Assembly: GCA_025350465.1 (NCBI GenBank)
Contig: JANXXU010000052.1
Span: 1 to 64,000 of the forward strand
DNA from: Alphaproteobacteria bacterium
Lineage (GTDB): Bacteria; Pseudomonadota; Alphaproteobacteria; Micropepsales; Micropepsaceae
Length of the DNA: 64,000 nt
Reading direction: 5' to 3'
Position numbers and translations under genes: made by a program
Notes under the pieces: generated by a model
The model's input: only the letters and a program-made list of their open reading frames with translations
Told to the model about the DNA's origin: nothing
The model's database searches: none
Shown here: positions 3,722 through 25,360 of the stretch, one piece after another
Position numbering within the stretch: the first letter of the stretch is position 1
How the letters are laid out: the number at the start of each line of letters is the position of its first letter

Positions 3722-4888
3722 CTATTCTCCTTGCGAATGGATGTTTCTTCGCGTGGCGCCGAGCGTCTTGCCGAGCGCGAGCAGCGGCGCACTTTGCTCG
3801 GGCGGGATCGCGGCGTCGGCCATCGGACCGACGTTGATCAGGAGATTGCCGCCGGCCGAGGTCACCTCGCGGTGGAGGGCGATGAGCGCGGCGGGGCTTA
3901 AGTAGTCCGTGGGTAACTCTTCGCGGTTGTAGCCGAAGGCGAGGCCGAGGCCGCGGCAGGCTTCCCATTTCTTATCCTTGGGGATCGTACCCATGCCGTA
4001 TTCGACGGTGCGGAAATCGCAATGCGGCGGCGGCGGGCTTTCGAGCGGCCCGGTGCTGGCCGCGATGCGCGCCTTCATTGTTGCATTGAAAGCGGCGCGG
4101 GGGCCCGCGTCGCGCAGATGATTGAAGAAGCCGTCTTCGGCGAACCAGCGATCGTTGACGACGCCGTCGGGGACGGCCGCGTAGTAATCGGCGAAGAGCG
4201 CCGGTACTTGGGCCTTCGACGGCCAGGCGATGTCGTTCCAGAGGACGCTCGGCTTGTAGCGCGCGATCAATTCGCGAAGCTGGGCCGAGGCATAGTCCGT
4301 GTACTGACGCTCCGTCGGCACGCAAGCGAACATGTCGCCGAGATTGGCGATTGGGTTCGAGCGCGCGGTCCAATCGAGGCCACCCGAATAATAGAGACCG
4401 AAACGCATGCCGCGCGCGCGCACGGCCTGCGCCAACTCGCCCACGAAATCGCGGCGGCTGTGCCAGCCGGGGCGCCACGGGTTCTCCACCGCCGTCGGCC
4501 ACAGGCAATAGCCGTCGTGATGCTTGGTCACGAAGACGACGTAGCACGCGCCCGCCGCCTTGAAGAGATCGGCCCAGACGTTCGCATCGAAGGCGCGCGT
4601 GGCGTCGTCGAAGGCCGGGCGAAAGGCCGTGTACGGACGGTCGCCGTAAGCCGTCGCGTGATGGCGCTGGGTGGCGCTGCCCTTCAAACGCAACGCGTTC
4701 TCGTACCATTCCGCATAGGGCAGATAGGCGTTCATGTCGTCGTAGTTTTCGCGCATCAGCACATCGATGGCGCGCCCGCGCGGCGCAAAGGCCGGCACCG
4801 AGAAGATGCCCCAATGGATGAAAATGCCGAAGCCCGCTTGCGCGAACCAATCGGGACAGGGGCGATCCTTGAAGGCGTCGAAGCTCAT
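3722..4888 (-). CDS. Alpha-L-fucosidase-like glycoside hydrolase (GH29)
   Basis: 388 residues from the chosen ATG at 4888; an in-frame ATG at 4966 would add 26. GH29 features: PDWFAQAGFGIFIHWGIFSV near the start, YVVFVTKHHDGYCLWPTAVE, GLYYSGGLDW, and PSVLWNDIAWPS, whose Asp is in the position of the catalytic nucleophile. GGNLLINVGPMADAAIPPEQ is the typical end of the catalytic barrel. GH29 enzymes release alpha-L-fucose from glycans. No signal peptide is seen, which points to a cytoplasmic enzyme acting on imported oligosaccharides, and no C-terminal beta-sandwich follows, so it is short for the family. It leads the pair with the VOC gene. Confidence 0.85.
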   Translation of the reverse strand: MSFDAFKDRPCPDWFAQAGFGIFIHWGIFSVPAFAPRGRAIDVLMRENYDDMNAYLPYAEWYENALRLKGSATQRHHATAYGDRPYTAFRPAFDDATRAFDANVWADLFKAAGACYVVFVTKHHDGYCLWPTAVENPWRPGWHSRRDFVGELAQAVRARGMRFGLYYSGGLDWTARSNPIANLGDMFACVPTERQYTDYASAQLRELIARYKPSVLWNDIAWPSKAQVPALFADYYAAVPDGVVNDRWFAEDGFFNHLRDAGPRAAFNATMKARIAASTGPLESPPPPHCDFRTVEYGMGTIPKDKKWEACRGLGLAFGYNREELPTDYLSPAALIALHREVTSAGGNLLINVGPMADAAIPPEQSAPLLALGKTLGATRRNIHSQGE

Positions 4889-21810: not shown

Positions 21811-21818
21811 AGCCGTCG
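21811..21818. repeat. Target site duplication, left (AGCCGTCG)
   Basis: AGCCGTCG directly abuts the left terminal repeat and recurs exactly at 24450-24457, directly after the right terminal repeat. The 8-base length fits the IS1 group. Confidence 0.88.
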
Positions 21819-21837
21819 GGCGGTGTCCTAATTTGAA
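21819..21837 (+). repeat. Left terminal inverted repeat
   Basis: GGCGGTGTCCTAATTTGAA. Its complement encodes the last residues (Ser-Asn-stop) of the zinc-finger gene. Confidence 0.92.
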
Positions 21838-22079
21838 TTTCGCGGTGATGGCCCCTCGAAAGGCACCGTGTTTGTGAGGCGCTCAATTTGCTGGGCTCGC
21901 CAATCAGCATTCTGCGTCGCAAAGATAGTGCCGATAGTCGCCGTGCAATTGCCGCAGATGCAAAGTTTCATACCCTTGGTTGGGCTGATCCGTACAAGCA
22001 GCGGGCGCTCCTTATTGGCGCCCTCTCCACAGAAGTCACATATAAGTTCGGCTTGTGATTTCGGAATGTCGGCGCTCAT
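21828..22079 (-). CDS. ClpX-type C4 zinc-finger small protein (transposon passenger)
   Basis: 83 residues. LICDFCGEGANKERPLLVRI and MKLCICGNCTATIG give Cys14, Cys17, Cys42 and Cys45 in the spacing of the ClpX N-terminal zinc domain (an extra Cys is at 40). No AAA+ ATPase part follows, so it is a free-standing zinc domain. In ClpX this domain dimerises and binds adaptors and substrates, so an adaptor or decoy role toward ClpXP is possible, but that is inference. The start overlaps the stop of the preceding gene by 4 bases. The stop codon is inside the left terminal repeat. Confidence 0.75.
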   Translation of the reverse strand: MSADIPKSQAELICDFCGEGANKERPLLVRISPTKGMKLCICGNCTATIGTIFATQNADWRAQQIERLTNTVPFEGPSPRNSN

Positions 22080-22375
22080 AATTTAGACCTGTGCTCCGCC
22101 ACGATAGCCGCCCTTACAGCATCGGCCGGCGACGCGACCGGCCCGAAGTGTAGCACCGCAATAAAGCGCCGCTTGCCGTTCTCAAGTTCGTAGGACCACG
22201 CATAGGCGCGCGTCGCCAGCGGGTGGCCGGCAAGCTCAAAAACCGCGACAGCGCCGTCCCAGACCGTTTGGCCGTCCTGCATTTCCTTAACCGGCACCGA
22301 TTGCAGGAACGTGGCTGTGCCGCCGTGCTGAAGTTCGACGGCTTTCTTTAGCTCGGATTGGTCCACTTCGCTCAT
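22076..22375 (-). CDS. Unknown 99-aa protein (transposon passenger)
   Basis: Begins MSEVDQSELKKAVELQHGGT and contains VWDGAVAVFELAGHPLATRA then YAWSYELENGKRRFIAVLHF, a beta-rich pattern, and ends with a helix SPADAVRAAIVAEHRSKL. I do not recognise the family. A longer reading to 22429 exists but ATG 22375 gives the cleaner start. It overlaps the zinc-finger gene by 4 bases (ATGA), so the two are translationally coupled. It is separated from the P63C gene by 129 bases in which I see no gene. Confidence 0.65.
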   Translation of the reverse strand: MSEVDQSELKKAVELQHGGTATFLQSVPVKEMQDGQTVWDGAVAVFELAGHPLATRAYAWSYELENGKRRFIAVLHFGPVASPADAVRAAIVAEHRSKL

Positions 22376-22504
22376 AGGTGCCCACTGTAGTATGTTTTCG
22401 TCACGCGGTCTTTCCGCACTACGCATCACCTCCCATCGGGCAGCCTTGGCAGGCCGGGTCGGAGTTAAGGCTCACAGCGGCGGCAACTGCTGTGAGCCAA
22501 TTCC

Positions 22505-23518
22505 TCAATCGTCGAGCGGCATCTCAATTGTGTGGCCGTAGCGTGGCAACGCGCGATTTATGGCGCGCATGAACTGATCCCAACTAATCGAAGCCTTCAT
22601 GAGCACTATTGTCGCCCACAAATGCTCTCGCAGCCGGGGGTCGCCAACGTCGGCAGTTAGCCATTGGAAATGTCTGTGCCTACGATTGCCCGTTGGAAGT
22701 TTCGGATTCTTTTGCCTTAGCTCTTCCAGCACCCCTGGAGCAAGACGTTCGTAAACGAGATCGTTTGTCCATTTTCCTATAACGCCAGGGCGCTTCACCA
22801 GCCACGGCTTGTACGGCCATTTCCGCAACCGGAAAATCTCCTTATAGAATTCGTCTGGGAACGTCTTGGCCCATTTTCTGAGTTCTTCAGAAATGAACTT
22901 ATCGAGAATTTTTTCGAGTGCGTGCCGTGCCCGCACCTCTTGATATCCGGTCGCTTCGTCAACCAACGCAATGATGCCAACGTGGGCCAAAGCGCGGATC
23001 AAAATCTCAGCCTGCTTTGCAACATGAAGCTGGTTCTGCGGAAGCGCACCAGCATCTCGCGCGCGCAGGTATGTGTCGCAAACCATAGGCAGAATTTCAG
23101 CGCGATAGCCGCTGGCAATCGATCCCCTGGGCAACCGAAATTTAACAGGGCGGCTCTTCTCTAAAAGGTCCTTAGAAATGAACGGCTTAAGGGCTTTGCC
23201 CTGCAAAATTGGTGGCACCGGCTCTTCTTGACCTTCTGCGCGATCAACGTTGGCCTTTCGGTGCCGTCCAAGAGCCTGAAGAAATCCAGCTTGAGTGAGC
23301 ACTCGCGTTTCATCGGCATCGTCAAGGACGTAGCACTGAAGCTCGACATTGCCGACCCGAACGGGGCGATCCGGGCCGCCAAAGGTCGCGATTGGTACGT
23401 CATCCCGCCAGCGCATCGCCGCCGCCTGACGCGCAATCTCGCTTCGCCGCTTCGGACTAAGCGCCTCAGCACGTGCCTTGCCTGCGGCAATGCGGGCTGG
23501 ATCTTTATCAGATGCCAT
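22505..23518 (-). CDS. P63C-domain protein (transposon passenger)
   Basis: 337 residues. The N-terminus ARAEALSPKRRSEIARQAAA then MRWR is a basic helical motif seen at the start of several plasmid and phage proteins. The middle is helical. The C-terminal ~110 residues carry the P63C pattern: FPDEFYKEIFRLRKWPYKPW, VIGKWTNDLVYERLAPGVLE, ELRQKNPK, RHRHFQWLTADVGDPRLREH and a last helix with SWDQFMRAINRALPRYGH. P63C is a domain of unknown function found in bacteria and phages. Nucleic-acid binding or DNA maintenance would fit the basic composition but is not shown. A candidate promoter (TTGATC, 17 bases, TATGTT) lies just upstream. Confidence 0.78.
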   Translation of the reverse strand: MASDKDPARIAAGKARAEALSPKRRSEIARQAAAMRWRDDVPIATFGGPDRPVRVGNVELQCYVLDDADETRVLTQAGFLQALGRHRKANVDRAEGQEEPVPPILQGKALKPFISKDLLEKSRPVKFRLPRGSIASGYRAEILPMVCDTYLRARDAGALPQNQLHVAKQAEILIRALAHVGIIALVDEATGYQEVRARHALEKILDKFISEELRKWAKTFPDEFYKEIFRLRKWPYKPWLVKRPGVIGKWTNDLVYERLAPGVLEELRQKNPKLPTGNRRHRHFQWLTADVGDPRLREHLWATIVLMKASISWDQFMRAINRALPRYGHTIEMPLDD

Positions 23519-23532
23519 GTCTTTAGGCCCTT

Positions 23533-23605
23533 ATGCTTGATAAGGCGAAAACATAATGCTTGCACAAAATCCGATCAAGCATTATCTTTTCAGTGCATCA
23601 AGCAT
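23533..23605. promoter_or_regulatory. Symmetric four-site operator and divergent promoters of the transposon
   Basis: ATGCTTGAT (23533-23541), ATGCTTGCA (23556-23564), ATCAAGCAT (23574-23582) and ATCAAGCAT (23597-23605): two direct pairs in inverted arrangement, start-to-start spacing 23, 18 and 23, with the dyad axis at 23569. Candidate minus-strand promoter: TTGATC at 23578-23573 and TATGTT at 23555-23550, 17-base spacer. Candidate plus-strand promoter: TTGCAC at 23560-23565 and TATCTT at 23583-23588, also 17 bases. The sites cover both promoters, as expected for a shared repressor. The repressor is not identified. Confidence 0.6.
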
Positions 23606-24440
23606 GGGGACAAAAGTGAACCGCACACCGCTTGCCCGTCGCACGCAAATCATTCGGTGCTTGGTAGAGGGCAATTCAATTCGTTCGACCGAAAGATTGA
23701 CGAACACGCATCGCGACACGGTGATGCGTTTGATGGTCGAAGTCGGCACCGGTTGTGCGAAAATCATGGACGAAAAAATGCGCAATCTCCCATGCGAGCG
23801 CATTCAGTGCGACGAAATTTGGTCGTACGTCGCAAAAAAGCAGATGCGTTTGAAGCCGGACGACAATCGCGCGGAGATGGGCGACCAGTGGACTTGGGTT
23901 GCTATTGATCCGGATACGAAGGTCATTCCGTCCTATCGCGTCGGCAAGCGCACACGCGAAAACGCCGTCGCCTTCATCCGCGACCTTTCAGAACGCTTGG
24001 CCAACCGTGTGCAGATTTCGACCGACGCCTTGAGCACCTACGTCGATGCGGTTGAGCGGGCGTTTGGCGCGGATGTCGACTACGGTCAAATAGTTAAATT
24101 CTACGATGCCGAACCGATTGGGCCAGGGCGCTATGCTCCGCCGCGCGTGACAGGCGTGGATCGCACCGTGATCGCAGGTGCGCCGGACCAAAGACACATT
24201 TCAACGAGCATCGTTGAGCGCAACAATCTTCTTATGAGAATGTCGATCCGCAGAATGACGCGCCTGACCGATGCCTTCTCCAAAAAGTTGGCCAACCACA
24301 AGGCCGCAGTGAGCTTGCACTTTGCCCACTACAATTTCGTGCGCCTGCACCGCAGCCTTCGGGTCACGCCCGCTATGGCCGCAGGCGTCAGCGACCGCCT
24401 TTGGTCCCTTGAGGAACTGGTAGAGCAGACTTCAAATTAG
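23604..24440 (+). CDS. IS1-like DDE transposase
   Basis: 278 residues from ATG 23604; a GTG at 23616 after GGGGA and an ATG at 23556 are alternatives. The N-terminal helix-turn-helix PLARRTQIIRCLVEGNSIRS with TNTHRDTVMRLMVEVG binds DNA. Catalytic residues: Asp in IQCDEIWSYV, Asp in QISTDALSTYVDAVERAFG, and Glu in HISTSIVERNNLLMRMSIRR. The end TDAFSKKLANHKAAVSLHFA with HYNFVRLH resembles the IS1 InsB C-terminus. It is a single frame with no programmed frameshift, unlike classical IS1. The TAG stop falls inside the right terminal repeat. Confidence 0.85.
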   Translation: MGTKVNRTPLARRTQIIRCLVEGNSIRSTERLTNTHRDTVMRLMVEVGTGCAKIMDEKMRNLPCERIQCDEIWSYVAKKQMRLKPDDNRAEMGDQWTWVAIDPDTKVIPSYRVGKRTRENAVAFIRDLSERLANRVQISTDALSTYVDAVERAFGADVDYGQIVKFYDAEPIGPGRYAPPRVTGVDRTVIAGAPDQRHISTSIVERNNLLMRMSIRRMTRLTDAFSKKLANHKAAVSLHFAHYNFVRLHRSLRVTPAMAAGVSDRLWSLEELVEQTSN

Positions 24441-24449
24441 GACACCGCC
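24431..24449 (-). repeat. Right terminal inverted repeat
   Basis: TTCAAATTAGGACACCGCC, the exact reverse complement of the left end. It encodes the Ser-Asn-stop of the transposase. Confidence 0.92.
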
Positions 24450-24457
24450 AGCCGTCG
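24450..24457. repeat. Target site duplication, right (AGCCGTCG)
   Basis: Exact copy of 21811-21818, directly adjacent to the right terminal repeat. Confidence 0.88.
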
Positions 24458-24529
24458 AGCCGGCTTGCAGGATGATGAACGCGCGCTCACAAATCGATGA
24501 GGGTTTGGCTGGCCTTCGCGAGCGAAAGC

Positions 24530-24606
24530 TGGTGGGCCCGGCAGGACTCGAACCTGCGACCAGACCGTTATGAGCGGCCCGCTCTAACCAACTGAGCTAC
24601 AGGCCC
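24530..24606 (-). tRNA. tRNA with CAU anticodon (Met elongator or Ile2)
   Basis: 77 bases including an encoded CCA. The acceptor GGGCCTG pairs with CGGGCCC (one U-G), the D arm is GCTCAGTTGGTTAGAGC, the anticodon stem GGCCG/CGGTC holds the loop CTCATAA with anticodon CAU, and the T arm is GCAGG-TTCGAGT-CCTGC. A G1-C72 pair excludes a typical initiator tRNA. Elongator Met and lysidine-modified Ile2 cannot be told apart with confidence by eye. It lies 73 bases from the right target duplication of the transposon. Confidence 0.92.
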
Positions 24607-24712
24607 CACCGTCGTCAGGGCTATAGCAAATGCGCCGGAGTCTACCAAGGCTGCCGCGCCGTGGACAAAACTTGGCTTTCCGTTTCTCTTAAGCCATCGA
24701 GCGGGGAACAGC

Positions 24713-25360
24713 ATGAAGATATTCTTCGACGTCGACGGGGTCTTGATTGATGGCTGGCACAGCAAACCGGAACGCCGGAAGCCTTGGGACGCCCGCTTAG
24801 AGCAGGACCTTGGAATCGATCGGGACGCGTTTCGAAAGAGCTTTTTCGAGTCGCCGACGGGCAAATTCGCCTCGCCGATGCATGCGTGCGTGAAGGGTGA
24901 ACGCGATCTTAAGGAGGCCCTGGCGGCCGTGCTGCCGAGCATCGGGTATAACGGGTCCGTCGACGCGCTCGTCAGCTATTGGTTTGAAAAGGATTCAAAC
25001 GTCAATCCCGACGTATTCGACGCCGTGACGCGGCTTGGCCGACACAGCAATGTCGAGCTCTATGTGGCGACAGGGCAAGAACATTACCGGGCCGCCTATT
25101 TGTGGAATGAGCTGGGGTTCAGCAAGCACTTCAAAGACATTTTTTACAGCGCAAGACTTGGCCACCTAAAGGGCACGCCTGAATTCTTTGCCGAGATTAA
25201 TAGGGCGCTTCGCGTTGCGCCCGACGAGCGCCCGCTTTTTTTCGACGATCAGGAAGAAATTGTCAGCTTGGCTCGCGCGGCGGGATGGGATGCGTGTGTC
25301 TTCGATACGACCGACGACATCCTCGAGCATCCGAGACTCAGGCGCCTGCTACAGCAATAA
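24713..25360 (+). CDS. HAD-superfamily hydrolase
   Basis: 215 residues. HAD motifs: I FFDVDGVLIDG (Asp nucleophile and Asp+2), II VELYVATGQ (Thr), III Lys in RLGHLKGTPEFF, IV ERPLFFDDQEEIVSLARAAG (Asp-Asp). The cap is a four-helix C1 type between motifs I and II (RLEQDLGIDRDAFRKSFFES). It is likely a phosphatase or dehalogenase-like hydrolase of a small phosphorylated compound; the substrate is unknown. It stands alone, convergent with the quinone oxidoreductase gene 6 bases away. Confidence 0.82.
   Translation: MKIFFDVDGVLIDGWHSKPERRKPWDARLEQDLGIDRDAFRKSFFESPTGKFASPMHACVKGERDLKEALAAVLPSIGYNGSVDALVSYWFEKDSNVNPDVFDAVTRLGRHSNVELYVATGQEHYRAAYLWNELGFSKHFKDIFYSARLGHLKGTPEFFAEINRALRVAPDERPLFFDDQEEIVSLARAAGWDACVFDTTDDILEHPRLRRLLQQ

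Follow-up and report, generated by a model that had tools for sequence, protein, structure and literature searches.

The results presented here concern a transposon in a 64,000-nucleotide stretch of DNA from an alphaproteobacterium of the Micropepsaceae (assembly GCA_025350465.1, contig JANXXU010000052.1, positions 1 to 64,000), referred to below as the window. Judged from its sequence, the segment at 21819-24449 is an intact unit transposon that belongs to a widespread, cargo-bearing IS1-like branch, and one of its passengers, a protein with a P63C domain, probably controls the jumping of the transposon that carries it. More specifically, we propose, with a probability of roughly 0.6, that P63C represses its own gene and, in this element, silences the transposase as well. 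Control of transposition was among several roles suggested in a first-pass annotation of this DNA; it is now the best supported of them, owing to a link between an N-terminal motif of P63C, termed GGK, and repeated ATGCTTG words that are its putative binding sites.

The P63C gene (22505-23518, minus strand) encodes 337 amino acids, with the GGK motif at about residues 10-37 and the P63C domain at 204-296, as placed by Pfam, PHROG and hidden Markov model (HMM) searches. The domain scores 127 bits with PF10546 (cut-off 26), and PHROG 2384, a phage protein family annotated as function unknown, spans residues 4-337 (E 2e-119), making it a full-length phage relative. GGK is a motif of about 30 residues (GGxxRA..L[ST]....R..IA..AA..RW) that has no Pfam match; a Pfam search with eight small GGK proteins likewise returned nothing close to the cut-off. 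Between P63C and the transposase of the window lie four ATGCTTG words (23533-23605), which we take as predicted operators: O1 (ATGCTTGAT, 23533-23541) and O2 (ATGCTTGCA, 23556-23564) on the plus strand, and O3 (23575-23582) and O4 (23598-23605) on the minus strand, both of which read TCAAGCAT on the plus strand. When GGK carriers were assigned with an HMM built from free small GGK proteins, 34 P63C genes were found to have the motif and 13 assessable ones to lack it. At least two ATGCTTG words stand within 160 nucleotides (nt) upstream of 30 of the 34 GGK-bearing genes, against an expectation of 0.99 when windows are drawn at random from these loci, versus 1/13 of the genes without GGK, for which a wider 400 nt was searched. 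Grouping of the GGK-bearing proteins at 60% identity leaves words in 22 of 25 groups, and the set comes from Gordonia, Burkholderia, Salmonella and Pseudomonas phages, a Deinococcus plasmid and transposons. Conservation reaches beyond the searched word as well, the further bases in 98 sites being A (61%), then C (87%) and A (57%). A set of genes fetched later gave words within 160 nt at 6/8 distinct GGK genes versus 0/8 genes without GGK. On sequence evidence, this amounts to a repeated putative operator at the gene's own promoter, conserved over distant members, as expected of a self-regulating DNA-binding protein. As a separate observation, the P63C genes of loci L188, L295, L296 and L074 have no ATGCTTG words and carry other repeats at the same upstream place, as if the upstream site and the GGK motif had changed together. 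Both GGK genes of the later set that have no words show such other repeats there.

The same word occurs before the transposases of related elements. Among 84 distinct elements of the family, GGK is present in 48 of the 56 that lie outside clade 1 of the transposase tree (52 on the tree and four off it), usually encoded as a small separate protein close to the left end; 7 of the 28 clade-1 elements have it too, five times as part of P63C. For the 83 elements with a usable transposase start, a word stands within 150 nt before the transposase in 42/55 GGK-bearing elements versus 1/28 elements without GGK (Fisher 7e-11, background 0.088). Two or more words within 180 nt ahead of the transposase were found in 7/10 P63C elements, 6/24 small-GGK elements and 5/50 others, a split that followed earlier calls of open reading frames (ORFs); all five of these others later proved to bear GGK. 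Within clade 1, two words precede the transposase in 4/6 P63C elements versus 0/24 of the remaining elements. Transposase promoters of clade 2 commonly read ATGCTTGACA ... CAAGCATAAT. Standalone GGK genes in other genomes, seen with 1.5-kb flanks only, mostly have no pair of sites, and the pairs that do occur (L058, L059, L197) lie at a transposase start. In the window, promoter-like sequences were read by eye both for P63C (TTGATC-17-TATGTT, 23550-23578, minus strand, 8 of 12 consensus bases) and for the transposase (TTGCAC-17-TATCTT, 23560-23588, plus strand, 7 of 12). A terminator scan was negative.

Based on these findings, we propose that the 19-nt ends of the element are where its transposase acts and that P63C would bind the four ATGCTTG sites through its GGK motif. 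Since the predicted sites cover the start regions of both divergent genes, P63C would repress itself and the transposase, and the element would stay quiet until the level of P63C falls or the protein is inactivated. In sister clade-2 elements, the free small GGK protein (67-138 residues as called) may take the part of the repressor. The body of P63C (residues ~45-337) would then be the selected passenger, a phage-derived effector and most likely a prophage-type exclusion gene; that this body excludes phages is a suggestion to which we give slightly less than an even chance. The 99-residue protein encoded next to P63C would be a clade-1 transposition accessory, and the outermost 83-residue gene may be incidental. 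A broader and more tentative proposal, which we consider rather unlikely, is that GGK may be a small sequence-specific DNA-binding module reading ATGCTTG and the common transposition repressor of a large, defence-carrying IS1-like family, fused in P63C to a phage-derived sensor or effector, such that a phage attack lifting repression would trigger the passenger and free the transposase. If true, control of the transposase by a cargo protein would tie the fate of the passenger to the activity of its vehicle, and the conserved upstream sites would offer a direct handle on what P63C does to DNA.

Several observations weigh against P63C as a repressor of its own gene and the transposase. The word is missing at 4/34 GGK-bearing P63C genes, at 2/8 of the later set and before the transposase in 13/55 GGK-bearing elements, and when 400 nt are allowed, 2/8 of the later genes without GGK have two words. 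It was first spotted in part of the first gene set, and some of the later genes are kin of earlier ones, leaving the two sets not fully independent. Three of the 13 genes without GGK are partial matches (L017, L194, L195), and a further gene, L010, was dropped, being cut by the contig start. A consensus promoter scan of 23500-23660 found none, the readings by eye matching 7-8 of 12 bases. The structure model of P63C is weak (predicted local distance difference test 74, predicted template modelling score 0.49), and no relative by fold or sequence was found in the PDB. PADLOC models gave no match to the four proteins of the window element at E 0.1; applied to the 101 neighbours found around 12 transposon-free P63C genes, they matched only four families, with one protein each. 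Lastly, a tree-corrected test of GGK against the word, underpowered with seven independent pairs, gave on average 3.3 pairs in agreement, none opposed and 3.7 without difference (median p 0.25).

This last result favours the reading that the GGK-ATGCTTG link in clade-2 transposase promoters reflects common descent from one ancestral promoter and no regulator-operator pair, as does the fact that the site includes the -35 consensus TTGACA. Against it stand the same word at GGK-bearing P63C genes of Gordonia, Salmonella, Burkholderia and Pseudomonas phages and of plasmids, the two words peculiar to P63C elements within clade 1, and the 12 transposon-free genomic P63C loci, none of which has a match to the window transposase; we regard common descent as improbable. 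Those 12 loci bear on the nature of P63C too. PHROG and PADLOC scans around them showed phage genes and few defence genes, and their neighbours include integrases and Ant proteins, which would suit an antirepressor-like prophage regulator of the Ant/BRO/KilA-N type that has no defence role and merely hitch-hikes on the transposon. A match of PHROG 2899, "anti-repressor Ant", to the C-terminal residues 217-295 of P63C (8e-8) points the same way. However, P63C is also found on transposons and small plasmids, where no phage repressor was seen as a target, and it recurs over many branches of the transposase tree, and we consider a pure antirepressor unlikely.

A further possibility is that P63C serves mainly in phage defence or superinfection exclusion, as a Rex-like moron comparable to lambda rexAB, and regulates its own promoter only, the overlap with the transposase promoter being incidental to the divergent gene order. 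This is a serious contender, to which we would give odds not far below even. The P63C gene, known from Salmonella, Stx, Gordonia and further phages, immediately follows the phage repressor gene in 6/16 phage or phage-like records (SPN9CC, 146851_sal5, where the gene is split, SI8, Midgardsormr38, Kuwabara and a phage-like region of E. coli RHB46-C23); its plasmid neighbours are Abi and helix-turn-helix genes (two plasmids), an LlaMI restriction enzyme, an AAA ATPase with a DNA methyltransferase, and DndB; and the cargo of sister elements includes RmrA, restriction-modification, GmrSD, Zeta and Panacea proteins. Conversely, P63C stands apart from the repressor in others, within the nin region in Nil3 and ST2-8624 and next to virion genes in Pkon1, EM03-18-08 and a Pantoea prophage region, and PADLOC matches near the 12 transposon-free genes are few, as noted above. 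In addition, GGK-bearing elements without P63C also have sites before the transposase, so control of the transposase would not be incidental in the family. The anti-phage or addiction role raised earlier is plausible from the sister cargo and the phage context. No P63C function was recognised in titles and abstracts of open-access papers. The phage proteins with a P63C domain (PF10546, PHROG 2384) share with the window protein their full length and, in most GGK-bearing members, the same upstream sites; the window P63C differs in sitting inside a unit transposon, divergent from its transposase.

A last explanation, that P63C and a zinc-finger protein form a module acting on host ClpX proteolysis, merits almost no credence. 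It goes back to the 83-residue gene (21828-22079, minus strand), whose CxxC...CxxC product had been labelled a ClpX-type zinc finger. This label is weak: PF06689 (zf-C4_ClpX) matches with E 0.017 and 15.4 bits, short of the gathering cut-off of 27, and the suggested role in host proteolysis has this sub-threshold match as its sole basis. The gene was found in none of the other 83 of the 84 family elements, and a search of 72,556 plasmid records gave no match at E 0.01; a travelling module of P63C and zinc finger is thus not supported. A specific tie of P63C to the 99-residue gene (22076-22375, minus strand) is likewise rejected. The latter is present in 23/28 clade-1 elements and in L104, and it tracks transposase clade 1 whatever the cargo, and so appears to be part of the vehicle and not of P63C. 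This gene also has homologues apart from the transposase, with matches in 28/96 genomes, several of them on contigs that lack a transposase match.

The structure of the element itself bears out the first-pass annotation, which had recognised a cargo transposon that is complete and has an IS1-type transposase. Its perfect inverted ends and perfect duplication had been called correctly to the base, and ORF coordinates confirm one transposase and, on the opposite arm, three passenger genes. The element measures 2,631 bp between two perfect 19-nt terminal inverted repeats, the left (GGCGGTGTCCTAATTTGAA, 21819-21837, plus strand) matched exactly by an inverted copy on the right (24431-24449, minus strand). 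It is flanked by an exact 8-bp target duplication (AGCCGTCG, 21811-21818 and 24450-24457), read from the sequence and from comparison of family ends. Allowing up to 3 mismatches, a search of the 52 contigs of the assembly finds the end pattern at both ends of this element only, and a backwards control pattern gave one match. Gene layout is compact: the transposase runs rightward and the other three genes leftward, and the outermost genes enter the ends, the stop of the 83-residue gene lying within the left end and that of the transposase within the right.

The transposase (23616-24440, plus strand, in an ORF open from 23556) was identified by Pfam and NCBIfam profiles and by alignment, and probably starts at the GTG at 23616. 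Its reading frame is uninterrupted in the window copy and in aligned relatives, and D70, D141 and E205 (numbered on a 278-residue reading from 23604) are invariant across 19 aligned transposases. PF03400 (DDE_Tnp_IS1) matches with 27.0 bits, above the Pfam gathering cut-off of 24.1, whereas the NCBIfam IS1 model NF033558 matches (8e-15, 55 bits) below its cut-off of 100. IS1-family elements make target duplications of 8-9 bp and have short ends starting with GG, and the exact 8-bp duplication and the perfect 19-nt ends starting GG conform to this. Classical IS1 is under 1 kb long, with two overlapping frames joined by frameshift, and single-ORF branches of the family exist. As the frameshifted double frame was not found here and such branches are known, we file the element as IS1-like and not as IS1. 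The earlier remark that IS1-group elements normally lack cargo does not hold for this branch, in which elements range from 948 to 6,033 bp (median 3,215), 83 of the 84 measuring 1,504-6,033 bp and the single 948-bp one being a remnant.

Comparison with relatives supports the insertion. The insertion separates a SIMPL/DUF541 gene from a tRNA-Met, the sole match of an Rfam scan. In the same genus, all seven loci whose SIMPL gene is a close orthologue (61-66% identity) have an element-free interval between this gene and the tRNA-Met, which stands a few hundred bases upstream, and none carries the passengers at this place without the ends. Sequence blocks from either side of the insertion point were found in the relatives in the correct order, 7-27 nt apart; the tRNA-side block exceeded the best of 100 shuffles in 7/7 relatives and the SIMPL-side block in 5/7. 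By this comparison of synteny and short blocks, which is not base for base, the passengers lie within the ends and are missing from the same place in relatives, as expected of a cargo transposon. The orientation of the tRNA-Met with respect to SIMPL in the window is the reverse of that in the seven relatives, and thus the far flank has been rearranged too. A HAD-family gene beyond the tRNA-Met matches nothing in 10 further genomes of the genus, and this flank (24488-25360) looks rearranged or recently gained.

Related elements are widespread. Transposase matches are present in 39/96 family genomes (fragments counted), and the best 80 of at least 571 relatives are on contigs, mostly from metagenome-assembled genomes, titled from Alphaproteobacteria to Acidobacteria, Verrucomicrobia, Planctomycetaceae and Nitrospira. 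Matching ends, with 4 or fewer mismatches in 17, and an exact 8-bp duplication were found at 89/123 loci with a transposase match. Of these, 84 distinct elements were retained, the loci dropped being L095, L099, L118 and L166, which were doubtful or did not start with GG, and L105, which duplicates L063. The other loci are at contig edges, are fragments or have no end pair. The same search on reversed flanks gave 3/123 matches, none with a GG start. In 48 elements the transposase and the gene adjoining it are divergent, and in 32 the two stand in tandem.

Profile scans of cargo covered 135 of the 138 ORFs with 150 or more residues (68 and 67 in two scans, three overlapping ones left out), and the 25 commonest families of each scan are considered here. 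RmrA-type (RosmerTA-like) proteins, in 4 and 9 ORFs, are the commonest single model among the matches listed, which also include N6/N4 methylases, Tsp45I, SLFN_AlbA, SocA/Panacea, Fic, GmrSD, Zeta and AAA/AbiEii-like proteins. A Tsp45I endonuclease and methylase occur together in L107, GmrSD in L164, and Vsr with a C5-methylase in L003, whose right end is the contig end and which is therefore outside the 84. P63C was found in 6 and 4 ORFs of the two scans, and it is cargo in 10/84 elements. Cargo differs even between close transposases (e.g. L064 versus L065), and on a quick transposase tree (17/77 inner branches starred, 30 open) the P63C state takes 10 changes for its 10 bearers. From these gene contents, we conclude that cargo is exchangeable among sister elements. 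Other copies carry mostly cargo unrelated to that of the window element, yet P63C does recur, scattered over the tree.

Compared with known systems, the element shares with the IS1 family a DDE_Tnp_IS1 match above the Pfam cut-off, ends beginning GG and an 8-bp duplication; it differs in scoring below the NCBIfam IS1 cut-off, in its single long ORF and in that 83/84 related elements are at least 1.5 kb long. Cargo-bearing insertion sequences (tIS), of which the IS1595 branch is an example, have in common with it one transposase, short ends and passengers that are not needed for transposition. Tn7-like transposons use machinery different from the one-transposase, IS1-like kind. Their cargo is described as including diverse defence systems (PMC8649781). 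The defence-type cargo seen here is likewise diverse, and is carried by elements of ~3 kb with one IS1-like transposase. Such small transposons, swapping toxin-antitoxin, restriction and other defence-type genes between close transposases, provide a compact route for the spread of these genes. A regulator encoded by an element and controlling it is described in CvkR, a MerR-type transposon-encoded repressor of type V-K CRISPR-associated transposons (PMC9938897). P63C as proposed here would resemble CvkR in this respect, and GGK and P63C differ from it in having no match to such a Pfam family. Neither this IS1-like branch nor its two accessory genes or the operator link were recognised in titles and abstracts of open-access papers.

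Some further observations were made on members of the family. The 948-bp element (L098:7176-8123) has matching ends and a duplication with only a fragment of transposase, and resembles a non-autonomous copy. At L007:5811-5850 and L092 (reverse complement) 4780-4820, two family-type ends stand back to back with one 8-bp duplication in common, the second end starting directly after the right duplication of the first element. Loci L004-L007 are elements with exact duplications on contigs classed as viral, one of them (L005) with a DNA-methylase-type gene. Finally, the genome of the window contains transposase remnants on contigs C10 and C43 and a second family member on contig C48 (L067:5420-9156), which carries an XRE-ImmA gene and, as read by eye only, a HigB-like gene.

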